A stretch of 64,000 bases of DNA from NCBI GenBank assembly GCA_002840285.1, contig PHAE01000002.1, positions 1-64,000 of the forward strand. The letters are read 5' to 3'. A program made the position numbers and the translations under genes. This stretch comes from Firmicutes bacterium HGW-Firmicutes-11 (lineage in GTDB: Bacteria > Bacillota > Clostridia > Peptostreptococcales > Anaerovoracaceae). Shown here one piece after another: positions 28,682-60,405 of the stretch. The notes under the pieces were generated by a model that was not told the DNA's origin, did no database searches, and saw nothing but the letters and a program-made list of their open reading frames with translations. Positions within the stretch are counted from its first letter, which is position 1. Each line of letters begins with the position of its first letter.

Positions 28682-29974
28682 TTACATTGCTGTTTTGGAG
28701 CAGGCATCGAACAGGGATTCTGCGTTCCCCCACTCCTCGATCAGACAGGGGATGACTTTATAAAGATCGCCAACGATTCCATAGTCAGCCACTTCGAATA
28801 TCGGCGCTTCCGGATCCTTATTGATCGCAATGATCAAATCCGATGTCTGCATTCCGGCAAGGTGCTGAATGGCTCCGGATATGCCGCAGGCAAAATAAAT
28901 CTTTGGCTTGACCGTCGTTCCGGTCTGTCCCACCTGATGGGAATGATCGATCCAACCGGCATCGACTGCGGCTCTAGAAGAGCCGACGACTCCTCCGACC
29001 GCATGGGCAAATTCGGTGATCAGTTCAAATCCCGAAGGATCTCCGAGACCTCTCCCGCCGGAACAGATGATCTCTGCATCGGTCAGGGACACAAGCTCTT
29101 TCGCTGCCTTTACTACTTCCAGAACTTCTGTGCGAATGTCTGCTCGTACGATAGCTGGTTCGACCTTGATCAGTATCCCTTGTTTCGTTTCGTCCCGCTC
29201 CAGCTTCTGCATGACGCCAGGACGAACCGTGGCCATTTGGGGCCGGTGTTTGGGACAAAGGATCGTTGCCATGATGTTGCCGCCAAATGCAGGGCGGGTC
29301 TGCTTCAGGTTTTTATCTTCCGAATTGGGATCCAATGAAGACGTGTCCAGCGTCGTGCACTTGTTCAGATACTGAATGTAGTTTCCCGTGTTTACATCCA
29401 GACGTGTGCAGTCTGCGGTCAGTCCCGTATCCAGTCTGGCGGCTACTCTCGGAGCCAGATCTCTGCCGATATGAGTTGCGCCAAAAAGAACGATTTCCGG
29501 CTTGTATTCACGGATCGCATCGGTCATGACCTTTGTGTATCCATCGGTGGTGTACTTCTCAAGCAGCGGATCGTCGATCTGATAAACGACATCTGCGCCA
29601 CAGGCGTAGAGTTCCGGGATCAAGTGATCCGTTTTATGACCGATCAACAATGCACATACGTTCCTGTCGCCGATCTCCCGTGATAGTTTGTTCCCCTCGC
29701 CTAAAAGCTCCAGGGCCACGTTCATCAGCTTTCCTGCCCTCTGTTCGACAAAGACCCATACATCCTTGTATGCAGAAAGGTCCACGATTTCGGCGGCCCT
29801 TTCCTCGCATTTTTCGATCGCATCGAAGGGACAGGCCGGAATGCACTGTCCACAAGCCGTGCAAGCTTCATTGATCACTGCCAATTTTCCCGCCATATCG
29901 ATCGCATCGAAGGGACAGGCTTTGATGCAGAGCTTGCAACCCTTGCATTTATCATTGATTACTTTGATTGCCAT
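28682..29974 (-). CDS. etfA: Electron transfer flavoprotein alpha subunit with N-terminal ferredoxin domain
   Basis: This 430-residue EtfA carries an N-terminal 2x[4Fe-4S] ferredoxin module ([17 protein letters not shown] and [18 protein letters not shown], residues 1-55). It is followed by the EtfA alpha/beta domain and a C-terminal FAD domain with [18 protein letters not shown] and [14 protein letters not shown]. Ferredoxin-bearing EtfA subunits are known from bifurcating caffeyl-CoA reductase and lactate dehydrogenase complexes. The FAD in domain II would pass electrons to butyryl-CoA dehydrogenase. It is the last gene of bcd-etfB-etfA, 17 bp after etfB. Confidence 0.95.
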
Positions 29975-29991
29975 TGTTTCATCCTCCTCAA

Positions 29992-30786
29992 TCAGATCGC
30001 ATGTTTTTCTTTTAAACGAATCAGTAATGCCTTCGCGACGTCTTTATCGCAGTCACCTTCCAGCATGATGCCTTTGCCCTTTGCTGCCGGAGAAAAAGAT
30101 CGGAACACGTTGGTCGGTGACGACTCCAGTCCCACTTCCGTCAGATCGACACCCAATGCAGCGGCACCCCATACCGGAATTTCCTTTTTTGTTGCCTCAT
30201 AGATGCCCCCTATATGCATATATCTGGGCTCGTTGAGTTCCTTGATCGCGGTGAGCATGCAAGGCATGCCGATCTTGATTTTTTCGTAACCGTCTTCCAG
30301 TGCTCGTTTGACGATGATATCTTTATCAACGATCTCGAATTCCGTGACATAAGTGACCTGGGGGATATCAAGTTTTTCAGCGATCTGCGGACCGACTTGA
30401 GCGGTATCACCGTCGATGGCCTGGCGTCCTGCAAAGATGATGTCAAACTCCCCGATTTTTCGGATCGCTGCCGCCAACGCATTTGATGTTGCCCAGGTAT
30501 CTGATCCTCCCAAGGCCCGGTCAGAAGCCAGGATTGCTTCATCTGCGCCCATTGCAAGGCACTCGATCAACATATCCTTTGCTTGTGGCGGTCCCATCGT
30601 CAGAACGGTGATATGGGTATCTTTGTATAGATCTTTGATTCGTAGCGCCTCTTCCAGCGCGTTTGCGTCATCATGGTTCAATATGCTGGGAACTCCGTCC
30701 CGGATCAAAGTGTTCTTGACCGGGTCGATCTTAACTTCATTCGTGTCGGGAACCTGTTTCGCACATACGATGATTTTCAATGCCAT
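29992..30786 (-). CDS. etfB: Electron transfer flavoprotein beta subunit
   Basis: This 264-residue EtfB pairs with EtfA and carries the second FAD (in bifurcating types) or AMP (in conventional types). The segment [20 protein letters not shown] is characteristic of anaerobic, probably bifurcating Etfs that oxidise NADH. The ATG at 30786 follows a purine-rich GGAAGGGGAG. It lies 17 bp after bcd. Confidence 0.94.
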
Positions 30787-30803
30787 TTTGCTTTCTCCCC
30801 TTC

Positions 30804-31949
30804 CTATCTGCCAAACACATCGGCTGCGATGACGATTTTTTGGACTTCAGAAGTCCCTTCGTAGATTTCGGTTATCTTGGCGTCCCGCATCATCCGTTCC
30901 ACCGGATAATCCTTCGTATAACCGTAACCGCCGTGAAGCTGAACTGCTTTCGTCGTCACGTACATGGCGGTCTCTGCAGCGTAGAGCTTGGCCATCGCCG
31001 AATAGGGGCCGTATTTCAGATGTTTGTCCTTACGGTCGGCCGCCTGATAAATCAGTAATCTGGCCGCTTCGATCCTCGTCTTCATGTCTGCGATCTCAAA
31101 TTGAAGACCCTGGAAAGCGGCGATGCTTTTTCCGAATTGTTTTCTCGCTTTCATGTACTCGACGGTCACGTCAAATGCTCCCTGAGCGATCCCAAGAGCC
31201 TGGGAGGCGATGCCGATCCGCCCGCCGTCCAAGGTTGCCATAGCTATTTTGAATCCTTCCCCGACTTGTCCGAGAAGGTTTTCTTTCGGTACGATGCAAT
31301 TCTGGAAAATCAGTTCTGTCGTCGAGGATGCACAGATCCCCATCTTATCTTCTGTTTTTCCTACAGAGAATCCGGGAAATTCCTTCTCAATGATAAAAGC
31401 GCTGATCCCGCCACGAGTGCCTTTTGACTTGTCTGTCATTGCCACTACAATAAAGGTATCCGCAAAGCCGCCGTTTGTGATGAACACCTTGGCGCCGTTC
31501 AATTCCCAGTGATCGCCACGGTCGATCGCTCTGGTTTGCTGCCCGCCGGCATCTGTACCGGCATTGGGTTCAGTCAAGCCGAACGCTCCCAGTTTCTCGC
31601 CTTTCGCGATGGGGATCAGATACTTTTTCTTCTGTTCTTCTGTTCCGTAAGCAAACAGTGGCCATCCGCAAAGAGAAGTATGCGCAGAGCAGATGACTCC
31701 GGTGGAAGCACAGACCCGGGACAATTCTTCAACTGTGATGGCATAGGCCATGTTGTCACCGCCGGCACCACCGTACTCCTTCGGAAATGGCACGCCAAGG
31801 AGTCCGTATCTGCCCATTTTTTCCACATTCTCGGTGGGAAAACGATGTTCTTTGTCGATGTCAGCGGCGATGGGCTCCACTTCGTTCACGGCAAATTTTC
31901 GTACCATTTTCCTTACAAATTCCTGTTCCTTGGTCAGTTGAAAGTTCAT
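30804..31949 (-). CDS. bcd: Short-chain (butyryl-CoA) acyl-CoA dehydrogenase
   Basis: This 381-residue FAD enzyme should reduce crotonyl-CoA to butyryl-CoA with electrons from EtfAB. The catalytic base is E364 in IYEGTSE, equivalent to E367 of the Megasphaera enzyme. Family motifs include [14 protein letters not shown] and [20 protein letters not shown]. The ATG at 31949 follows AGGAGG; the frame from 31976 is slightly longer. The operon lacks crt, hbd and thl, so the substrate supply must come from elsewhere, and crotonyl-CoA from AbfD in this same window is an obvious source. Confidence 0.93.
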
Positions 31950-32082
31950 CTTCTGCCTGCCTCCTATCAATATCAATCTTTTTATATTGTTATAATTTTA
32001 ACACTTACAAGTTAATTAAACACCATTTCTGCTAGAAATGCAACTATTTTTTTGCTATTTTCGCTAAAAGTTTGTTTTGATA

Positions 32083-48517: not shown

Positions 48518-48733
48518 TTATCCTATGATTTCAGTGACTTCGTATCCTGCATCTGCAACGACTGTAGCTAGTTCGCTCTGCTCGATATCCCTTGTCAAGA
48601 CCAGATGTGCCTCACCTGCCTGCAGGTCAACTTTGGCGGTTATGCCATCAATACCGTTGAGCGCCTTTTCAACGCTTGCCTGACAATGTTTACAGGTCAT
48701 TCCTTTGATTTTTAATTTTAATTCTTTGTTCAT
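48518..48733 (-). CDS. Heavy-metal-associated (HMA) domain protein, CopZ-like
   Basis: This 71-residue single HMA domain has the metal-binding motif GMTCKHCQASVEKAL. Such proteins carry Cu(I), Zn or other soft metals to partners. It begins at ATG 48733, 8 nt after GGAGG; the open frame up to 48880 is not supported. No copper ATPase is adjacent, but a Zn/Cd-type ATPase without its own HMA domain lies at 58573-60405. Confidence 0.9.
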   Translation of the reverse strand: MNKELKLKIKGMTCKHCQASVEKALNGIDGITAKVDLQAGEAHLVLTRDIEQSELATVVADAGYEVTEIIG

Positions 48734-48764
48734 TCTATGTTCCTCCAGTCCAACCGCTTTTTCG

Positions 48765-48793
48765 TTCGCAACGATTATGCAATCTGTTATACT
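48765..48793 (+). promoter_or_regulatory. Promoter of the class II aldolase gene
   Basis: TTCGCA, then 17 bp, then TATACT with an upstream TGT (extended -10). An 8-bp perfect inverted repeat, AGCATGTG with CACATGCT (48803-48827), sits in the resulting 5' leader and may be an operator or RNA hairpin. Confidence 0.55.
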
Positions 48794-48861
48794 ATACCCA
48801 GAAGCATGTGTTTCTATCGCACATGCTGTACTCGATACAAGATTCAGGAGAACTCGATCAT

Positions 48862-49755
48862 ATGGAACAAATGAACACACCGGAATCCCTGAAGAGGGAG
48901 CAAATACGCATGGCGGGTATCCGCCTGGTCAAATCCGGTTTGGTATCCCGTACCTGGGGCAACATAAGCTGTCGCCTTGATGAGGACTTTTTTTTAGTCA
49001 CCCCAAGTGGCAGAGAGTACGAAGGACTTTCTGCGGAGGATATCGTAAAAGTCGATCATCGTGATCTCTCCTACGCAGGAATGTTGAAACCATCTTCCGA
49101 ATCCGGCCTTCATCGTATGATATATCAGGAATTACCCGGTGTGGGAGCTGTGATCCACACTCATCAGCTTTGGGCTTCTGCCTTTGCCGCCGCGGTCGAG
49201 GAGCGTTATCGTCTCCGCTCTCCTCATGAGCGATTTGGCGCAGAGATCCGGATCGCCACCTATGCACCCTCCGGGACAGAAGCGATGTCGAGTTCCGCTG
49301 TAGCTGGACTGCGCGCATCCAAAGGAGGCGCTGTCCTGTTGCGGCATCATGGCGCTGTCAGTACGGGAATGGACATCGAGGAAGCGTTCACCAACGCCTT
49401 CGAACTGGAGCAGTTGCTTGAGCAAGAATTTAAAACGATGTATCGGAATGTGGAAGGGGAAGATTTCTTTTATGAGGGCACACAGAATCCCATGACCCTT
49501 CGCTTTTCCCGTCTCAATATCCCAATGCGGCCGATGCTGGACGATTTTGCCCAGATCGTCGGCGAGGTTCTCCCTGTGGGCTCCGCGAGCGGGATTACCG
49601 ATGCGATCATTTCGTCGATCGTTGAAAAAAATGCTCTGTCTTACTACGTTGCGGCTCTGACAGGAAGTATCGACCCGATCCCGGCCAAGGAAGCGCGGAG
49701 ACTTCGGAAGGAGTATATCGAGTACTATTCCCTGTTGAATCAAAGGAACCGATAA
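48862..49755 (+). CDS. Class II aldolase/adducin family protein
   Basis: This 297-residue protein has a zinc-dependent class II aldolase fold, similar to fuculose- or ribulose-phosphate aldolases and epimerases. Metal ligands are likely the histidines in VIHTHQLWA and LRHHGAVS. The substrate-binding motifs WGNISCRLDEDFFLVTPSG and PSSESGLH are near the N-terminus. The C-terminal 70 residues go beyond the usual about 215-residue domain and are unassigned. The ATG at 48862 has AGGAG 11 nt upstream; an ATG three codons later is an alternative. The substrate is unknown. Confidence 0.87.
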   Translation: MEQMNTPESLKREQIRMAGIRLVKSGLVSRTWGNISCRLDEDFFLVTPSGREYEGLSAEDIVKVDHRDLSYAGMLKPSSESGLHRMIYQELPGVGAVIHTHQLWASAFAAAVEERYRLRSPHERFGAEIRIATYAPSGTEAMSSSAVAGLRASKGGAVLLRHHGAVSTGMDIEEAFTNAFELEQLLEQEFKTMYRNVEGEDFFYEGTQNPMTLRFSRLNIPMRPMLDDFAQIVGEVLPVGSASGITDAIISSIVEKNALSYYVAALTGSIDPIPAKEARRLRKEYIEYYSLLNQRNR

Positions 49756-49758
49756 AAA

Positions 49759-49782
49759 ATCGGGATCCTACTGGATCCCGAT
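49759..49782. terminator. Bidirectional terminator between the aldolase and apbE genes
   Basis: ATCGGGATCC pairs with GGATCCCGAT across a TACT loop, flanked by six A on one side and TTTTT further along the other. It overlaps the last codons of apbE. Confidence 0.8.
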
Positions 49783-50817
49783 CATCTTTTTAAACCCCTG
49801 ACTTTCTTTCTGGGTGCCATCGTGGAACACCCACAGCGCTTCTGTGCTTTCAAAGGATTCCACCAGGTCGACTCCCTCTTCAAAGGGAAGGTTGAACACA
49901 GCTGTTGACAGCGCATCCGCCATTCCCGAATCCTCTGTGATAATGGTGACCGCAGCGAAATACCGGGCCGGCATCAAGGTCTCCGGATCAATGATATGAT
50001 GGTACCGCTCTCCGTTGACCGTATAGTACCGGATATAATCTCCGCTTGTGACCAGGGATAGATCCGTCAGGCTTGCCGTAAACAAATCCCCTTTGCCGCT
50101 GTCGATGTCCGGGTTTTGGATCCCGACCTTCCACATACTTCGATCGTCTCCCCTAAGACCGCTGGCTCTGACATTGCCGCCGACGCTGATCAAAAAATCA
50201 AGATATCCTTCCTCGACCAGAGTGTCACTGACTCTTTCGACTGCGTATCCCTTTGCGATCCCGCCCACATCCAAACGCATATCCGGATCCGGAAGAAAAA
50301 CGGTGGATGCAGCTTCATCAATTATGATCCCTTTGATGTCCGTATGCAGTGCGGCCTTCTGCAACTCTTCCATCGTCGGAAGTTTTGCACCAAGCGGGTC
50401 GTCGATGCCCAGTTCTCTGTAATCGTGCCAAATCTTAAGCACAGATCCAAAGGCGATGTTAACTTGACCGTCGGTTTTCTCATATGCCTCTTCCGAAAAC
50501 CGGATCAGTTCAATGATTTTCTTATCGACAACGACCGGAGCGATCCCGGCATTTTCATTTATCGTTTTTATATTGTTGATCCCGTCGTAATCGTTATAGA
50601 TGTCATACAGCTGGTGGTAGATCTTCAGTTCGTCGTAGACCAGGTTTGCCATTTCGCTAAAGTTTTCTTCCGTCTCCGCGAATCCGATGACGGTGGTTGC
50701 CGTATCAAAAAGCACGAGAAACTGCGCTTCATAGCGGTTTTTCTTTGGTCCTCCGCATGCAGTGACAAGCAAGGCGATCATGATAACGATCAAAATGGGG
50801 ATGTACTTTCGTTTCAA
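49768..50817 (-). CDS. fmnB: FAD:protein FMN transferase (ApbE/FmnB), lipoprotein
   Basis: This 349-residue extracytoplasmic flavin transferase attaches FMN covalently to threonine in partner proteins. Its N-terminus KRKYIPILIVIMIALL ends in the lipobox VTAC, so it is membrane anchored. ApbE motifs include DVGGIAKGYAVERV and the C-terminal region DALSTAVFNLPFEEG. The start is TTG 50817, after AAGGAG; the frame from 50877 is rejected. It is the last gene of the seven-gene FLEET locus, 70 bp after its likely substrate, the lipoprotein at 50888-51919. Confidence 0.92.
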   Translation of the reverse strand: MKRKYIPILIVIMIALLVTACGGPKKNRYEAQFLVLFDTATTVIGFAETEENFSEMANLVYDELKIYHQLYDIYNDYDGINNIKTINENAGIAPVVVDKKIIELIRFSEEAYEKTDGQVNIAFGSVLKIWHDYRELGIDDPLGAKLPTMEELQKAALHTDIKGIIIDEAASTVFLPDPDMRLDVGGIAKGYAVERVSDTLVEEGYLDFLISVGGNVRASGLRGDDRSMWKVGIQNPDIDSGKGDLFTASLTDLSLVTSGDYIRYYTVNGERYHHIIDPETLMPARYFAAVTIITEDSGMADALSTAVFNLPFEEGVDLVESFESTEALWVFHDGTQKESQGFKKMIGIQ

Positions 50818-50887
50818 TGGTTGCTCCTTAAAAAGCAGAGAGGTAGCACATACGTCTACCTCTCCTGCCGTCTTCATTCTGTTGGTC

Positions 50888-51919
50888 TTATCTTGCGAAG
50901 GTATAAGCTCTTTCTACATTTTCCATGAAAGGTCCGATGTGGACAGTTACAGAAGCTGCAAGGTCAGCATCCGCAGCTACGCCTTCATCTGTCAGTGCGA
51001 TTCCCGTCACATCAGCAACGGTCTTTCCAACGACATACTGTGCGAAAGCAGCTGCCTGCTCGTTCCACTCTTTGCCAATGCCGGAAGCTTTGGCCATTCC
51101 ATAGTCAGCTCCCAATTCATTCTTGGACTTGAAGGGGCCTGCGAGGTCGGTAGTGATGACGCCCATCGTGTCAAACTTGACGTTTGTCTGGGAACCATCG
51201 ATGATGCAGCTTGTGATGACACCATCGGCATCAAAGGTCACGATGGAGTAGTTGCTGTATGCCTGGGCAACGCCTTCCGCTTCCGCAGTCGCATCCTTGG
51301 ATTTGTCGATCGTGGTAACAATGCCGATTCCGATCATGTCATCAGCGGAAGCGCCAAGATCCTGTGCATTAGCAACTGCTTTTTCGATCGCAGCGATGTA
51401 GCCGGGAAGCTTGATCGTAACAGAAGCCAGAAGGTCGGCATCCGTAGCAACGCCATCGTCGGTCAAAGCGATTCCCTTGACTTCTTCAACGGTTTTGCCG
51501 ATCACATAGTCAGCAAAGGCATTTGCCTGCTCATTCCACTCTTTGCCGAGGGACGATGCTTTGTTCATGCCATAATCGGTGCCCATTTCCTGCTTGGCAA
51601 CAAATACTGTGTCAAGCGGAGTCACGATCTTGCCTTCTTTTGAGAAGTTGATCTTGGTCTGCGCAGAGTCGATTGCAATATTGGTGATCTTGCCATCGGC
51701 ATCGACTGTAACAGCAACAACAACAGAGTCAGCCTGGGCAAGGCCATCTGTATCACCAGCGGCGGCGGATTTTCCAGCCGAAGTCATGATGGCATAGCCA
51801 GTTTTGACTGCGGTGACTTCTGGTTCTTCTGCGGGGGGCGGGGTTTCTGCTCCACCACATGCAACCATAGCAAGCATTGCCATGACTAGAACCAATACGA
51901 GCAATAGTTTCTTGTTCAT
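50888..51919 (-). CDS. pplA: PplA-like flavinylated lipoprotein with two tandem FMN-binding domains
   Basis: This 343-residue surface lipoprotein (lipobox LAMVAC, C21) consists of two homologous domains, about 36-185 and 193-341. Each contains DYGMxKASxxGKEWNEQA, YVxGKT and a terminal DADLxASVT. The last motif aligns with the SGAT flavinylation motif of FMN-binding domains, so T168 and T325 are the expected FMN attachment sites (inference). In Listeria, PplA relays electrons from the membrane quinone pool to extracellular acceptors. The ATG at 51919 follows GGAGGAG. The flavin transferase gene is next. Confidence 0.88.
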   Translation of the reverse strand: MNKKLLLVLVLVMAMLAMVACGGAETPPPAEEPEVTAVKTGYAIMTSAGKSAAAGDTDGLAQADSVVVAVTVDADGKITNIAIDSAQTKINFSKEGKIVTPLDTVFVAKQEMGTDYGMNKASSLGKEWNEQANAFADYVIGKTVEEVKGIALTDDGVATDADLLASVTIKLPGYIAAIEKAVANAQDLGASADDMIGIGIVTTIDKSKDATAEAEGVAQAYSNYSIVTFDADGVITSCIIDGSQTNVKFDTMGVITTDLAGPFKSKNELGADYGMAKASGIGKEWNEQAAAFAQYVVGKTVADVTGIALTDEGVAADADLAASVTVHIGPFMENVERAYTFAR

Positions 51920-51951
51920 TTAAATCTCCTCCAAAATGTTTTTTCTATTTA

Positions 51952-52491
51952 TCAAACCAGCCGTTGAAAAGCTGGCATAACAAATCTCAATAAAGTCGAG
52001 GTCACGATCCCCGCGATGACGCCGGATACCAGTAGTATCGGCAGAAAGGCCCAGATGTTCATCCCCGCATAAAGCAAAGCGATCACGGTGAACTGGCCGA
52101 CGTTGTGAAAGACTGCGCCGAAAATGCTGATCCCCGTATAGGATATCTTGCTACGGAACATGACCATAAGCAGTAGCATGACTGTTATTGACAGAACTCC
52201 TCCGGCAAGGCTGAGTGCTCCGGCGATCGCTCCCCTCGTTGCGAAAACGAAGATTCCTTTCAGCAATGCGATTGCGTAGGCCTGCTTCCAGCCGAGAAAA
52301 AAGAGCGCATACATCACTGCTATATTGGAGAGTCCAAATTTGACTCCCGGTACCGGGATCGGTGGTGGCGGAAGCATGGACTCCACGACTGCCAACACCA
52401 AAGCCGTTGCGAAGATAAGGGATGCCAAAACCATCTTCTGGGTCTTGTTCAAGTTTTTTATGATCGGCTTCCCTGTTTCTATTACTGCCAT
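51952..52491 (-). CDS. eetB: EetB-like membrane protein (Gx transporter family)
   Basis: This 179-residue protein with about five hydrophobic segments is related to ECF S-component-like Gx transporters. It includes the proline-rich segment LPPPPIPVPGVKFGLSNIAV and FGAVFHNVGQFTVIALLY. In the Listeria FLEET locus, a protein of this type (EetB) is needed with EetA for electron transfer from demethylmenaquinone to PplA. The exact biochemical role is not settled. It follows the EetA-like gene by 16 bp. Confidence 0.82.
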   Translation of the reverse strand: MAVIETGKPIIKNLNKTQKMVLASLIFATALVLAVVESMLPPPPIPVPGVKFGLSNIAVMYALFFLGWKQAYAIALLKGIFVFATRGAIAGALSLAGGVLSITVMLLLMVMFRSKISYTGISIFGAVFHNVGQFTVIALLYAGMNIWAFLPILLVSGVIAGIVTSTLLRFVMPAFQRLV

Positions 52492-52507
52492 AATTTGTTC
52501 AATCCTG

Positions 52508-52900
52508 CTACCTGCCTACGACGATGTCCGGATCTTCAACATTGCGTTCTCCTGCTGGAACAATCTTCAGCACCACTCCGTTGGGGAGGCAGGCAGCGTA
52601 TTGTCCCACCGAATCAAGGGCACCGGTTTTGATGCACACTTTATCGGGGCAATCGGATTCCACAAATGCGATCGTACCATCATCGCTGATGTGGAACACG
52701 ACGTCCGGCTCCTGAGAGATCGAAAAGTTTCCCGTTTCTCCCGAATTTAGTTCAACTGTCTTCGCCAGTTCCGAATAGTAGTATATCTCTGCTCTTGTCT
52801 CCGACTGGCCGTATATGCTGTCATAGACCAAATATACCCCAAGACTTACGATCAAAAGCACTGCTGCGATCAAGATATCACTTTTTTTAAAAAATTTCAT
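52508..52900 (-). CDS. eetA: EetA-like NusG domain II protein
   Basis: This 130-residue protein has one N-terminal membrane helix (about 8-27) and an extracellular beta-rich NusG-II-like domain. The conserved segment SDCPDKVCIKTG carries two cysteines, with a third in YAACLPNGVV. In FLEET loci it accompanies EetB and is required for extracellular electron transfer. It sits 13 bp after the UbiA prenyltransferase gene. Gene order and the CPDKVC motif make this assignment good. Confidence 0.85.
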   Translation of the reverse strand: MKFFKKSDILIAAVLLIVSLGVYLVYDSIYGQSETRAEIYYYSELAKTVELNSGETGNFSISQEPDVVFHISDDGTIAFVESDCPDKVCIKTGALDSVGQYAACLPNGVVLKIVPAGERNVEDPDIVVGR

Positions 52901-52913
52901 GAAACCAGGTACC

Positions 52914-53816
52914 TCAGGAAATCATTCCGCCAAGAAAAATCGTTACGGTCAGAGACCCCATCAGTATAACATAGTTCTTGATCGATACTGAGAATGTGGT
53001 TTCTTTTTCCTGCTTCTGCCGAAAGACCTGAATGTTTTTCCTTATGGGCCAGATGGTCAGAAGCATCAGCAAGCACGTCAGTGGAAGCATTCCAAACAAT
53101 ATCATGACCAAGGTAGTCCCGTATGCAATGTAGTAGATCCAGGCGAACAGGTCAAGTGACCTTGCTCCAAGATAATACGGCAATGTGAACCGTTTGACAA
53201 GGACATCTTTTTCTAGGTCGCATATATTGTTGGCCAACATGATGTTCGCTGTCGCGCACACCGGATTGACTGACAGCAAAAGTAATGTCAGTACAGGCAC
53301 GACGTGGACTTGCAACCGGATGATATCAAACCCCAGGTACAGAGACAGATACGTTCCCGCAGGCATGTTGATGTAAAGCAACAGAAACGGGATGAAAAGT
53401 CCATAAAGCAACCCGGAAAGCAATTCGCCCAGCGGTTGTCTGGAAATCGGAACCGGCCCAAAAGTATAGAAGATGCCCACAAGGAAACAAAACCCGCCGG
53501 TCAGCAAGACCACCGCATCGGTGAAATACACTAATGTAAGACCTGCAATCGTACTGAAAACGAGAAGTGTCACTAAGATCGCCAGTGCTTTCGGCCGTTC
53601 GAAGGGCAAAACCTGATCGTTGGACTTGGTATCGATGTAATTGTTGATTGCCGTCGTCGTCAGATCGAAAAGCAACATGCCTGCAAAAAAGAGTCCTGTC
53701 AGTTTCCAGTCGATGGGCTGTTCCCTGTAGGTCAGGTAAGCGATCGTCATCAAAAAAGCAAACAGACTGGTGATCTTCGTGCGAATCTCGACGTAGTTTA
53801 AAAATCTGGAAACCAT
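52914..53816 (-). CDS. dmkA: UbiA-family prenyltransferase for demethylmenaquinone (DmkA-like)
   Basis: This 300-residue polytopic enzyme joins a polyprenyl chain to 1,4-dihydroxy-2-naphthoate to form demethylmenaquinone. The two Asp-rich motifs are NNYIDTKSND (after membrane helix 2) and NNICDLEKD. It is related to MenA. The ATG at 53816 is well spaced from AGGTG; the GTG at 53825 overlaps that site. No menG methyltransferase is adjacent, in keeping with use of demethylmenaquinone by FLEET. Confidence 0.9.
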   Translation of the reverse strand: MVSRFLNYVEIRTKITSLFAFLMTIAYLTYREQPIDWKLTGLFFAGMLLFDLTTTAINNYIDTKSNDQVLPFERPKALAILVTLLVFSTIAGLTLVYFTDAVVLLTGGFCFLVGIFYTFGPVPISRQPLGELLSGLLYGLFIPFLLLYINMPAGTYLSLYLGFDIIRLQVHVVPVLTLLLLSVNPVCATANIMLANNICDLEKDVLVKRFTLPYYLGARSLDLFAWIYYIAYGTTLVMILFGMLPLTCLLMLLTIWPIRKNIQVFRQKQEKETTFSVSIKNYVILMGSLTVTIFLGGMIS

Positions 53817-53825
53817 TTGCTTCAC

Positions 53826-54806
53826 CTAAAACACGCGGTATGCACTGTTCAGAATGGACGACAGTCGCAGGTGCTTCTCCTGAGAAAGCTCAAGCTCCTC
53901 CAGTATTTTCAATGACTTCATATAATATTTTTTTGCCAAAGAACGTGTATAAATCAAACCTCCTGCCTTGCGGACCGCCTCGTTGATTTCTTCCCGTTTC
54001 AGACCGGAGGTGGCCGCTTTCTCTTTGAATCCGGCCAGAGTCCGAAAGGCGTGAATGAGGGGCAAGGTGATGACGTTTTGTTCGTAATCCGACTGCACCG
54101 GCTTCTTCGCCACATGCTCTGTCGTTTCAAAATCCATACAATCGTCGGTCAGCTGAAAGATCATACCGATGTATCTTCCGAGATTGGAGTACTTTCTGAT
54201 GATTCTCTGATCGGTTTCGCTGAGGATCGATCCCGCATAGAACGCCGCTTCAAAGAGAGCTGCTGTCTTCCCGGAGATGATTTTCAGATACCGATGTACC
54301 GACAGGTCGAAGTTGGCGTTGTTTATGTGCTGTTGCAGTTCGCCGAGCACGACCCGGGACAGGTGTTTCGGCATATCAAATTTCAGATACTCTTCTTTGT
54401 CCGACGCATCGCCAGCCAGCATCAATGCTGCGCAAAGCAGATAGTCTCCACAGATGACAGCAGTACGCTTGCCGTACTTCTTCTGCAAGGAGAGTTCTCC
54501 CCTTCTCAATTCCGCATTGTCGATCACATCGTCGTGAACCAGTGTTGCCAGATGGACCAGTTCGATTGCTGCCGCAAAGCGGATCGCATCCTTGTGGATC
54601 GCTCCTTCCTTATCGATGGCGCACGTCAGCAGGGACACACCGCGAATGTATTTGCCGGTCGATTTCGTAAGGTGAGCGGTGTATTCCCGGATGATCCTGG
54701 GCGAGGCGGACAAAACTTTGTCCACCTCATCCCGCACCATGGAAAGCGTCTCGTCGATCGACGATGCATTCCAGTCGGTTTTATCAATTGCTCTGTTGTT
54801 AATCAT
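53826..54806 (-). CDS. dmkB: Polyprenyl diphosphate synthase (DmkB-like)
   Basis: This 326-residue trans-isoprenyl diphosphate synthase makes the side chain for the FLEET quinone. The first Asp-rich motif is LVHDDVIDNAELRRG, and the second is FQLTDDCMDFE. Length and motifs fit long-chain (C30-C40) synthases. It overlaps the ndh2 gene by 8 nt and is followed by dmkA after 9 nt. Confidence 0.92.
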   Translation of the reverse strand: MINNRAIDKTDWNASSIDETLSMVRDEVDKVLSASPRIIREYTAHLTKSTGKYIRGVSLLTCAIDKEGAIHKDAIRFAAAIELVHLATLVHDDVIDNAELRRGELSLQKKYGKRTAVICGDYLLCAALMLAGDASDKEEYLKFDMPKHLSRVVLGELQQHINNANFDLSVHRYLKIISGKTAALFEAAFYAGSILSETDQRIIRKYSNLGRYIGMIFQLTDDCMDFETTEHVAKKPVQSDYEQNVITLPLIHAFRTLAGFKEKAATSGLKREEINEAVRKAGGLIYTRSLAKKYYMKSLKILEELELSQEKHLRLSSILNSAYRVF

Positions 54807-56805
54807 TATAAATGTAAAGCTTTCTCACCCATCCGAGTTTTTTCCATCCCTTTTTCAGCGCAGGCAAGGCGTAGTAATCCAGTCCAAAGGTCCTTCCGCC
54901 GCCGATCAACACTGCGATTCCGGCAAAAATCATCCAGAACGTCCCCAAGTACAGTCCAGTTGTGGACACAAACATGAATTGGAGAATGAGGGACACACCC
55001 GCTGCCGGGAAGGTGAAGAGTCCGCCGATCAGAGCAAGTCCGATCACGATCTCTAAAATGACGATCGACGATTGCATCACGATCTGTATGCTGTCGTTGG
55101 GCAAAATCAGAGTATCGATGAACCAGTCGATCAGAGGAACATTCAGTTTAAACGCCAGATCGCTGAGTGTCGATTCCGCCAATTCTTTGCCACTGACAAG
55201 TATGGTCTGGAAAAGCCCGAGAAAATCCCAGTTGATGATGGCTGTTCCCATTGATGCAGCTACTTCGCCGCCACCTTCTGCCGCTGCGCCTGTTGCTGCT
55301 GTCACAGCATCGGTCACTGCTTCTGCTTCTCCGGTTGCGCCTGACCATTCGTCGGTTCCCGGGTTGAGGATCATATTGTACCAAGTTCTGGCTCCTCCGA
55401 AGAAACCGGTCAGCATCGGTGTGTTGAACCAACCTTCCATCGCCTTCAATATGCCTTCGTAAAGCCATACTGCTCCCAACCAAATCCGAAGAGGTACCAG
55501 CAAAAAGCTTGGTGTACGATTTGAAAAATGTCCGCCTACAAAACTTCTGCGGTCACGAATGGTAAAGAATTCGTGGCGCATGTAACTCCAAACCTTGTTC
55601 CAGCCCAATACTTGTGTAAAATAGATCAAGTTGATCATATGTTTGGCAAACATGGCGAGGAAGGAAGGAAGATTGATCATAGCGTTTGGTGTTCCCACTC
55701 GCGCTACCCCGTATCTTCCGCCGATACAAACCATGAAACCGTGGAAGGATGGTTTATATTTTTCCATCTCCCCTTTGCCGGTGATCGTACATTCGATATT
55801 CTTTGCCGCAGTTGAAGCACTGTGTTCGCAGTTTTCAACGACCTGCGGAACCGGCCGCTCTTCCCCTTCCGGGATATAAAGCATATTGTCGCCGATGACG
55901 AATACGTCCTGATTGTCGATGGAACGAAGGTAGGGATCGATTTTGATGCGATTCCTGGCCGCAGATTCCAGCACTTTTGCAGCTTCTCCAGTGATGTCGG
56001 CGCTCTCGACGCCGGCTCCCCAGATGACCGTGGACGCGATATGTTTGGTTGTGACGTCATCTTTCTTCGTCTCGATGAAATCCGGACCGATGGCTACTAC
56101 ATTTGTGCCAAGGAGGGTTTTGACACCCATCTTCTTCAGGCGTCTTTCCACTTTCACAGACAACTCCGGAGGAAGATTTGGCACTGTGCGGTCCAGTATG
56201 TCGATGACACCAACTGTGACATCGTCCCGGTCGATCTCGAACTTGTCGCATATGATCGGCAGATACTCAGCCAATTCGCCGGCCATTTCCACACCGGTAA
56301 ATCCTGCACCAACAACATAAATGGAGAGAAGTGCTTTGCGCTCCTCTTTGTCGGCGATCCGGCAAGCTCTTCGGAACAAATTGATGAGATGATGGCGAAT
56401 CGCGATTGCATCGTCATAGGACCACAACCTGAACGCATGCTCTTCTGCACCTGGAGTCCCGAAAAACGTCGGTTTCGATCCGGCGCAGAGAACCAGGTAG
56501 TCGTACTCGTATGTGTCCATCTTGCCGATGGCTTTTTTCCCTTCGAAATCGAAAGATGTGATCGTATCAAGCCGAACATCTACTTTCCTGCCGGCGAACA
56601 CTTTTGACAAGCTAACACGGATGCTGTCCTCGTCCACCCGGTTTGCCGCAACTTCGTGAAGCTCAGTGAGCATCGCGTGGAACGGGTTTTTATCAATAAT
56701 GGTGATGTCGATCTCATCATTCTTCTTAAACTTCCTTGCAAGCTTCTTCGCTACCAGGATCCCGGCGTATCCGGCGCCAACGATCACAATTTTTTTCTTT
56801 TCCAT
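54799..56805 (-). CDS. ndh2: Type II NADH dehydrogenase with C-terminal membrane domain (Ndh2 of FLEET)
   Basis: This 668-residue flavoprotein oxidises NADH and reduces the dedicated quinone without pumping protons. The N-terminal 400 residues are a pyridine nucleotide-disulfide type NDH-2, with FAD motif VIVGAGYAGILVAKKL, NADH motif VVGAGFTGVEMAGELA and the FAD-contact motif VFVIGDN. The C-terminal 230 residues form about four membrane helices of DoxX type, as in Listeria Ndh2. A low-complexity Ala/Gly/Glu linker (about 495-525) separates two of them. The ATG at 56805 follows GTAGGAGG. It is the first gene of the FLEET operon. Confidence 0.93.
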   Translation of the reverse strand: MEKKKIVIVGAGYAGILVAKKLARKFKKNDEIDITIIDKNPFHAMLTELHEVAANRVDEDSIRVSLSKVFAGRKVDVRLDTITSFDFEGKKAIGKMDTYEYDYLVLCAGSKPTFFGTPGAEEHAFRLWSYDDAIAIRHHLINLFRRACRIADKEERKALLSIYVVGAGFTGVEMAGELAEYLPIICDKFEIDRDDVTVGVIDILDRTVPNLPPELSVKVERRLKKMGVKTLLGTNVVAIGPDFIETKKDDVTTKHIASTVIWGAGVESADITGEAAKVLESAARNRIKIDPYLRSIDNQDVFVIGDNMLYIPEGEERPVPQVVENCEHSASTAAKNIECTITGKGEMEKYKPSFHGFMVCIGGRYGVARVGTPNAMINLPSFLAMFAKHMINLIYFTQVLGWNKVWSYMRHEFFTIRDRRSFVGGHFSNRTPSFLLVPLRIWLGAVWLYEGILKAMEGWFNTPMLTGFFGGARTWYNMILNPGTDEWSGATGEAEAVTDAVTAATGAAAEGGGEVAASMGTAIINWDFLGLFQTILVSGKELAESTLSDLAFKLNVPLIDWFIDTLILPNDSIQIVMQSSIVILEIVIGLALIGGLFTFPAAGVSLILQFMFVSTTGLYLGTFWMIFAGIAVLIGGGRTFGLDYYALPALKKGWKKLGWVRKLYIYND

Positions 56806-56832: not shown

Positions 56833-56861
56833 ATTCTCGCAGAAACACCAATGATTGTCAA
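56833..56861 (-). promoter_or_regulatory. Sigma-70-type promoter of the FLEET operon
   Basis: The minus strand has a perfect TTGACA (56861-56856), then 17 bp, then GAGAAT, about 28 nt before the ndh2 start codon. Confidence 0.65.
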
Positions 56862-58572: not shown

Positions 58573-60405
58573 TTATTGACGCAATGCCCTCAACGCATTG
58601 AGCACTGCCAAAAAAGTGACGCCGACATCAGCAAACACGGCAGCCCACATGCTGGCGATCCCAATGGCTCCGAGTATCATGACCGCGGCCTTCACTCCCA
58701 AGGCAAGAGCAATGTTTTCTTTTGCTATCCGCAAGGTTTTTCTTGAGATCGTGATCGCTTCTCCCACTTTGCCGGGTTCGTCGGTCATCAGTACCACATC
58801 AGCAGCTTCGATGGCTGCATCGGAACCCAATGCGCCCATGGCAATGCCGATATCTGCTCTCGCAAGCACAGGAGCGTCGTTGATCCCATCCCCGACAAAC
58901 GCCAGCGTAGCCCCACTGGTAGTTTCTATGAGCAGTTCCTCCAGTTTCTTGACTTTACCATCCGGCAGCAGATTCCCGAATACTTGATCGACCTCCAACA
59001 GCGAACCGATCTCTTTTGCCACTTCTTGTTCATCACCCGTCAGCATGACGATACGTTCGACCCCAAGCCTGTGTAGTTTTTTGATTGCGGCACTACTGTC
59101 AGGTTTGATCTCGTCTCCGATGACGATATACCCTACATATTTCCCTTCCACCGCAACGTGTACTGTGGTATCAAGCGTTGCGCTTTGGAGAATGTCGATC
59201 CCATTTTCCTGCATCCATCTTCTGTTTCCAGCAATGGTCTTTTTCCCATCAAGTTTAAGAGTCACCCCTTTGCCTGCATGTTCTTCTGCTTCTGTGATCC
59301 TGACTTGGTCCAATGGCTTACCATAAGCCTCCTTTAATGACGCGGCGATCGGGTGGTTAGACAAAGATTCTGCATGCGCAGCGATCTCCAACAGCTTTTC
59401 GTCGGAGATTCCGCTTCCGTTTATTTGGGTGACCTGGAACACGCCTTTGGTCAAGGTTCCGGTCTTGTCGAAAACGACGGTCTGAACCTTTGCGAGCGCT
59501 TCGATCGCGGAAGCTCCTTTTACCAGGATCCCTCTTCTGGAAGCTCCGCCGATTCCCCCAAAGAAACTCATAGGAACCGAGATCACAAGCGCGCAGGGGC
59601 AGGAAACCACAAGAAATATCAGTGCCCGATAGATCCACGGATCAAATGGCTCTTTGAGCAGGAGTGGTGGAAGCGTCGCCAAGAGCACTGCAAATACAAC
59701 GACCACAGGAGTATAATACCGAGTGAATCTGGTTATGAACCGTTCCGTTTTCGCCTTTTTACTGCTTGCATATTCCACGAGTTCCAGAATCCTGCTCACT
59801 GTCGACTGGCTGTATTCGCGAACTACTTTTAAAGTCAGTACCCCGTTGAGATTAACGCAACCACTCATTATTTCATCACCCGGCGCAACATCCTTCGGCG
59901 CAGATTCGCCGGTGAGCGCTGCCATATCCAGAGTAGAAAAGCCGTCGATGACAGTAGCATCCAGGGGAACCCGTTCTCCCGGTTTCAGAAGTATGATATC
60001 TCCCACTTTCACAACAGCCGGATCCACTTTTCGGAATGTGTCTCCTTCTTTTAAGTTTGCGTGATCCGGTCGAAGATCCATCAACTGGGTGATGTTTCTT
60101 TTCGATCGATCCACTGCGTAACCTTGAAACAATTCGCCGATCTGATAAAAGAGCATGACGGCAACCCCTTCCGGGTGCTCGCCGATCACGAACGCTCCGA
60201 TCGAAGCGATCGACATCAGAAAATTTTCATCAAAGACGTATCCCTTCAGAATATTTTTGCCCGCACGAAGAAGAACGTCACCACCAGCGAGGAGGTATAC
60301 AAATAAGAAAGGGACGTAGGATGGTCCAGCGGAATCAAAAGGAAACAACAAAAAAAATCCAAAGAGAAACAAGGCCACTATGATGCGGATCAACTGAGCT
60401 TTCAT
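58573..60405 (-). CDS. Heavy-metal P1B-type ATPase (Zn/Cd/Pb exporter type)
   Basis: This 610-residue P-type ATPase exports soft metals. Motifs are the membrane CPC in VVSCPCALVIS, actuator TGESAPK, phosphorylation DKTGTLTKG, the HP motif SNHPIAASL and GDGINDAPVLARADIG. The last membrane helix has an aspartate in FADVGVTFLAV, typical of the Zn/Cd/Pb subgroup rather than copper pumps. There is no N-terminal HMA domain. Its start overlaps the ArsR regulator's stop by 4 nt, so regulator and pump form one operon. Confidence 0.92.
   Translation of the reverse strand: MKAQLIRIIVALFLFGFFLLFPFDSAGPSYVPFLFVYLLAGGDVLLRAGKNILKGYVFDENFLMSIASIGAFVIGEHPEGVAVMLFYQIGELFQGYAVDRSKRNITQLMDLRPDHANLKEGDTFRKVDPAVVKVGDIILLKPGERVPLDATVIDGFSTLDMAALTGESAPKDVAPGDEIMSGCVNLNGVLTLKVVREYSQSTVSRILELVEYASSKKAKTERFITRFTRYYTPVVVVFAVLLATLPPLLLKEPFDPWIYRALIFLVVSCPCALVISVPMSFFGGIGGASRRGILVKGASAIEALAKVQTVVFDKTGTLTKGVFQVTQINGSGISDEKLLEIAAHAESLSNHPIAASLKEAYGKPLDQVRITEAEEHAGKGVTLKLDGKKTIAGNRRWMQENGIDILQSATLDTTVHVAVEGKYVGYIVIGDEIKPDSSAAIKKLHRLGVERIVMLTGDEQEVAKEIGSLLEVDQVFGNLLPDGKVKKLEELLIETTSGATLAFVGDGINDAPVLARADIGIAMGALGSDAAIEAADVVLMTDEPGKVGEAITISRKTLRIAKENIALALGVKAAVMILGAIGIASMWAAVFADVGVTFLAVLNALRALRQ

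Follow-up and report, generated by a model that had tools for sequence, protein, structure and literature searches.

The stretch of DNA analysed here, hereafter the window, comprises the first 64,000 nucleotides of contig PHAE01000002.1 of Firmicutes bacterium HGW-Firmicutes-11, and carries a seven-gene operon (56805-49768, minus strand) for flavin-based extracellular electron transfer (FLEET). FLEET is a widespread cytochrome-free form of electron export in Gram-positive bacteria, in which the step from quinol to the outside carries a question mark in a study of Enterococcus faecalis (PMC9864754). Here, we report that the NADH dehydrogenase of this operon, Ndh2, bears conserved motifs for covalent attachment of flavin mononucleotide (FMN) on a linker that is predicted to lie outside the cytosol. 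We lean towards a reading in which the flavin transferase FmnB acts on two substrates, namely the PplA-like lipoprotein of the operon and the Ndh2 linker. The bolder proposal is that clostridial FLEET Ndh2 is flavinylated by FmnB at several sites of an extracytosolic disordered linker, forming a single-protein trans-membrane electron wire (NADH, flavin adenine dinucleotide or FAD, quinone, and covalent FMN outside); to this we give an even chance. The motifs on the outer loop make linker-bound FMN a concrete candidate for the quinol-to-outside step. If true, this would fill that step, would explain why EetB and FmnB outweigh PplA in some species, and would change which protein counts as essential in electrogenic fermenters.

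Ndh2 (54799..56805; PF07992, Pyr_redox_2, 1.1e-38) is a type II NADH dehydrogenase (NDH-2) of 668 residues, which matches NDH-2 4nwz of the PDB (3e-59). Its C-terminal membrane domain has four helices (433-456, 571-594, 598-615 and 620-639), a domain that the other NDH-2 of the genome lacks entirely; this other, short NDH-2 (locus L150, 2148-6548 on contig C2) adjoins a 904-residue protein. The loop at 456-574 is acidic, with 3 K/R against 15 D/E, and contains a linker predicted to be disordered (residues 481-522, 55240..55365; predicted local distance difference test, pLDDT, below 50 at 483-518). Since the N-terminal NADH domain of NDH-2 is cytosolic, four helices are present and the C-terminal tail is positively charged, this linker should face outwards. 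Two motifs of the type recognized by ApbE-family transferases lie within it, both overlooked in the initial annotation: DEWSGAT (485-491; 55333..55353) and DAVTAAT (499-505; 55291..55311). The first conforms exactly to the substrate motif D-x-x-[ST]-G-A-[ST], whereas the second, like the sites of the lipoprotein, follows it in relaxed form only.

The motif was then surveyed in 47 clostridial Ndh2 proteins (the window protein included), whose linkers range from 28 to 95 residues. The form D-x-x-[ST]-x-A-[ST] occurs 86 times, in 45 of the 47 linkers, and the other two carry EAVSSAT. Shuffling each linker (1000 trials) yielded 2.1 copies on average and never more than 8, and the reversed motif is absent from the linkers. 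All 86 motifs have aspartate at -6 (0-1 at other offsets). A narrower form, D-x-x-[ST]-[GSA]-A-[ST], is confined to the linkers: 42 of them hold 78 copies, and the 28,882 residues outside them hold none. The motif is kept as its number (1-5 per linker) and position vary, and linkers down to 28 residues retain exactly one copy; Ndh2 proteins of other classes, at 35-49% identity, also retain it (DAVSSAT, DAVTGAT, DASSAAS). The most extreme case seen is the Ndh2 of locus L128, with seven DAVTAAT repeats in its linker. Present in 45 of 47 linkers, far above their frequency in shuffled ones, and always with aspartate at -6, the motifs make Ndh2 a probable second substrate of FmnB. As a lipoprotein, FmnB acts on the outer side, to which the linker should point, and we therefore propose that FmnB is the enzyme that flavinylates it. 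In an ordinary FLEET system, only the PplA-like lipoprotein would be flavinylated and the linker would be an Ala-rich flexible spacer, its repeated sequence serving another role such as helix propensity, spacing or glycosylation. Its composition (35% Ala, plus Thr, Gly and Ser), the looseness of the Gly position and the placement of FMN on PplA rather than Ndh2 in the literature found all speak for such a spacer, which nevertheless leaves unaccounted for the constant D at -6, T at 0 and A at -1 across 86 motifs, the single motif of the shortest linkers and the exact DxxSGAT forms. We therefore judge the spacer explanation unlikely, though deserving of serious weight.

The first proposed substrate, the lipoprotein (50888..51919), has a lipobox and two repeats of ~150 residues, and no Pfam match. 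Its putative flavin sites, DLLASVT (162-168; 51416..51436) and DLAASVT (319-325; 50945..50965), place the two threonines 157 residues apart. In 110 sequences, both sites share the consensus D/E-L-x-[SA]-S-V-T; the flavin position is T/S in 110/110 at the first site and in 109/110 at the second, the remaining sequence having a gap. By sequence, the only PDB entry matched was 2kzx (E 0.6 from the single sequence and 4e-4 with a profile), and in the profile alignment the lipoprotein site falls on its SGAT. The predicted structure (pLDDT 93) sets each of these threonines four residues before a helix, the arrangement of solved FMN-bind domains (PMC10339131). A Foldseek search of the model against the PDB gave no significant match, and the top structure from VIA-align was the FMN-bind1 protein 3o6u (107 residues, 3.1 Å) at a middling Z of 7.3, which IscU-like folds follow within ~1-2 Z units, so that structural similarity by itself does not settle the assignment. 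FMN-bind2 domains are ~160 residues long, often paired and related to FMN-bind1 (PMC11334425), and the paired repeats, the model and the 3o6u neighbour place the lipoprotein among them; what is particular here is their position within a FLEET operon and their SSVT-type motifs. PplA of the Listeria/Enterococcus type, in contrast, has two FMN-bind domains with SGAT/TGAT motifs ~120 residues apart (PMC8906456, PMC7074142); the Listeria protein is flavinylated at Thr143 and Thr265, 122 residues apart (PMC8906456), values taken from the papers, there being no Listeria among the best 80 named loci used below. Bacillus-type comparison loci have DVVTGAT/DTVSGAT motifs at a spacing of 116-122. The window lipoprotein differs from this type in both spacing and motifs; the initial description of a two-domain PplA-like lipoprotein thus holds for the lipobox and the repeats, but the subtype is FMN-bind2 and not Bacillus-type PplA.

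FmnB (49768..50877; PF02424, 4e-66) has S278, R283, H294 and D321 aligned with the catalytic residues of Listeria FmnB (7esa), as expected of an ApbE-family FMN transferase, and across 72 sequences the conservation of these four residues is 95% or higher; the protein resembles Listeria FmnB no more closely than it does Treponema Ftp. Its likely start codon is the TTG at 50817, 60 nt downstream of the annotated start at 50877, since AAGGAG precedes this TTG and a clean lipoprotein signal is read from it.

Several points weigh against a doubly acting FmnB. The model of Ndh2 is only moderate (pLDDT 75; predicted TM-score, pTM, 0.60) and its topology is a prediction. The linker is of low complexity, and kinship of the sequences inflates the motif counts. 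Most Ndh2 motifs replace the canonical Gly by Ser or Ala, and both lipoprotein motifs do the same and also exchange Ala for Val; Gly-to-Ala and Ala-to-Val each lower flavinylation to ~50% in a test enzyme (PMC12052999). In Ndh2 of lactobacillus/enterococcus-like loci the loop is shorter, and 11 of 15 have only [SA]GA[ST] with D at -7, which makes them weaker evidence, the other four lacking it. Lastly, covalent flavin has never been observed on a clostridial Ndh2 or on an FMN-bind2-type lipoprotein of this kind. Neither a flavinylated Ndh2 nor the SSVT motif was described in the open-access literature searched, a scope outside which the original FLEET report and most other subscription papers lie; nor did we find any description of a variant that pairs an FMN-bind2 lipoprotein bearing SSVT sites with an Ndh2 linker bearing such motifs.

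Genetic data from other species fit a second flavinylated protein. Fe(III) reduction by E. faecalis requires EetB and Ndh3, its FLEET NADH dehydrogenase, but not PplA, and the proteins that carry electrons from reduced demethylmenaquinone to iron are stated to be unknown in that study (PMC9864754); flavin-dependent iron reduction by Lactiplantibacillus plantarum likewise requires Ndh2 and EetA/B but not PplA (PMC9888254). Lactococcus, which lacks pplA but has the remaining FLEET genes, still produces current (PMC8837199). ApbE motifs on unstructured tails, outside a folded FMN-bind domain, are experimentally established substrates in FMN_red proteins of Lactococcus (PMC11334425), whereas here the motif sits in a loop of an NADH dehydrogenase of the membrane. 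A flavin-based path from quinol to the outside has also been proposed for the NosR-ApbE module of Clostridium (PMC13134045), which relies on a membrane protein that contains FMN-binding domains and on neither Ndh2 nor PplA. For the window operon, we infer the electron-transfer steps, the acceptor and the attachment of FMN to both proteins as follows. Ndh2 would oxidize cytosolic NADH and reduce demethylmenaquinone, which DmkB and DmkA would make from 1,4-dihydroxy-2-naphthoate (DHNA), probably scavenged. EetB would export FAD together with the housekeeping EcfT/A/A' encoded elsewhere, and FmnB would attach FMN to the two-domain lipoprotein and to one or two threonines of the flexible outer linker of Ndh2. 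The tethered FMN would take electrons from quinol, or from the quinone site, at the outer face of the membrane, and the lipoprotein, free flavin or Fe(III) would receive them from it.

Two further proteins are encoded between DmkA and the lipoprotein. EetA (52508..52900; PF07009, 3e-20) is a membrane-anchored NusG_II protein with a weak match to Listeria Lin0431 (2kpp); its Cys84, Cys89 and Cys104 are each kept in no fewer than 95% of 31 sequences, and a redox or disulfide role is possible. EetB (51952..52491; PF07456, 4e-38) is a membrane protein adjoining EetA, the single PF07456 member of the genome, and of the S type of energy-coupling factor (ECF) transporters, for FAD export. In Listeria, an ECF exporter has EetB as its FAD-binding S-subunit and FmnA as its T-subunit and shares its ATPases with the importer; the ECF-T and ATPase subunits show partial redundancy there (PMC9973259). 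No dedicated FmnA was found here in a targeted search of the genome, which is 96% complete, so that this and the other genome-wide absences given below are provisional. The genome has one ECF-T (PF02361), adjoining EcfA/EcfA' on contig 41, and by analogy the exporter may keep its function without a dedicated FmnA. The initial annotation, which had suggested seeking such components elsewhere, saw no FmnA/ECF exporter subunit in the window; this is correct for FmnA but not for EetB, itself the S-subunit of the exporter.

Other flavinylation genes occur in the genome. The window FmnB is its only ApbE protein with a lipoprotein signal; the second ApbE lacks a signal sequence, and after it come an FMN_bind protein anchored in the membrane (DVISGAT) and a flavodoxin-like one (locus L001, 1450-3357, contig C33), a group which is a separate flavinylation unit. 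On contig C69 (C69:124 kb; locus L119, 389-2516), four consecutive genes encode a TetR-like regulator, a membrane protein of the FMN_bind type (DVVSGAT), one flavodoxin-like protein and one ferritin-like protein. An Rnf cluster (RnfD, G, E and A; locus L117, 204-2975, contig C52) has DAVTGAT in RnfG and DAVTGPT in RnfD. The operon could thus serve mainly to export FAD and to transfer FMN to other flavinylated complexes, above all Rnf: it holds the genome's sole PF07456 protein and the sole ApbE that has a lipoprotein signal, the Rnf with its motif-bearing RnfG is on another contig, and eetB often adjoins Rnf in Clostridia (PMC9973259). We find this very improbable as the main role, as it leaves unexplained why Ndh2, DmkA, DmkB and the lipoprotein share the operon; serving Rnf and exporting electrons can also be compatible at once.

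The supply of quinone qualifies the claim of a 'complete' FLEET locus. DmkB (53826..54806; PF00348, polyprenyl_synt, 4e-54) is a polyprenyl diphosphate synthase with DDVID/DDCMD motifs, and DmkA (52914..53825; PF01040, 1.8e-16; PRK06080.1-4, 6e-69) a DHNA polyprenyltransferase of the UbiA family. Targeted genome searches found neither MenD/MenB of the classical route nor MqnA/D of the futalosine route. The MenD match proved to be acetolactate synthase and the MenB matches generic crotonase relatives below the cut-off; PF02621 matches in relatives were weak (40 bits or less) and were not accepted as MqnA. 'Complete' is therefore too strong, and the quinone head group comes from outside or by an unrecognized route. 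The organism probably scavenges DHNA, judging from its gene content. Since MenB exceeded the cut-off in 0/33 genomes with PplA-like matches (the window genome included), dependence on outside DHNA seems common among these genomes, as in L. plantarum, which uses exogenous DHNA (PMC9888254). The missing MenD, MenB and MqnA/D could alternatively mean that an organism unable to make DHNA keeps the locus only as an idle or decaying remnant. All seven frames are intact, however, and catalytic residues are conserved; both the MenB result across the 33 genomes and the life of L. plantarum on imported DHNA also argue against a remnant, which we regard as hardly credible. As for the fermentative context proposed earlier, acyl-CoA dehydrogenase and EtfAB are clear at 28682-31976, but the 4-hydroxybutyrate enzymes were recognized at superfamily level only, below curated cut-offs.

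In layout, the operon agrees with its first description as seven closely packed genes on one strand. All seven open reading frames are present, in the transcription order Ndh2-DmkB-DmkA-EetA-EetB-PplA-like-FmnB with intergenic gaps of -8, 0, 13, 16, 32 and 10 nt, and the families assigned by Pfam and NCBIfam matches are those of co-localized ndh2, dmkA, dmkB, eetA, eetB, a pplA-like gene and fmnB. A promoter-like site upstream of Ndh2 (56833..56861, minus strand; TTGACA-17-GAGAAT with TG) is a consensus match only, and FmnB is followed by a strong terminator-like hairpin (49758..49783, minus strand; 11 pairs and a T tail). No Rfam elements were found near the operon, and a GC shift as a mark of recent transfer was looked for and is absent, GC being flat across the region.

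Relatives were gathered by scanning named genomes with the lipoprotein profile, which found at least 515; the best 80, used for loci, are all from Clostridia or uncultured Bacillota, with that of Sinanaerobacter chloroacetimidivorans at the top (67% identity). Among 47 loci with sufficient flank, the identical seven-gene order recurs in 14, EetA-EetB is relocated behind FmnB in 6, and the lipoprotein and FmnB alone are kept in 9. The FLEET assignment is thus upheld by gene families and by the comparison of gene order that had been recommended, and as a locus the operon is an ordinary, widespread member of a well-known kind. It has the same functions as FLEET of Listeria monocytogenes (Ndh2, DmkA, DmkB, EetA, EetB, a PplA-type lipoprotein and FmnB; Light et al. 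2018; PMC9973259, PMC8906456), from which it differs in the subtype and threonine spacing of the lipoprotein, in the long multi-motif linker of Ndh2, and in that no dedicated FmnA and no DHNA synthesis were detected. With L. plantarum FLEET (PMC8837199, PMC9888254) it shares a fermenting host and apparent dependence on exogenous DHNA, whereas the lipoprotein subtype and the Ndh2 loop differ, judged from lactobacillus-like loci. We class it as a FLEET variant expected to work like that of Listeria, electron export itself being predicted.

In five loci of Sedimentibacter and relatives (L041, L042, L043, L049 and L072), the FMN-bind2 lipoprotein adjoins ATPases of ATP-binding cassette transporters, with neither Ndh2 nor FmnB in the vicinity, and the lipoprotein may have a different use there. 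In the window, the operon region is flanked by a heavy-metal-associated chaperone-like protein (48518-48880) and a zinc/cadmium-type P-type ATPase (58573-60405).

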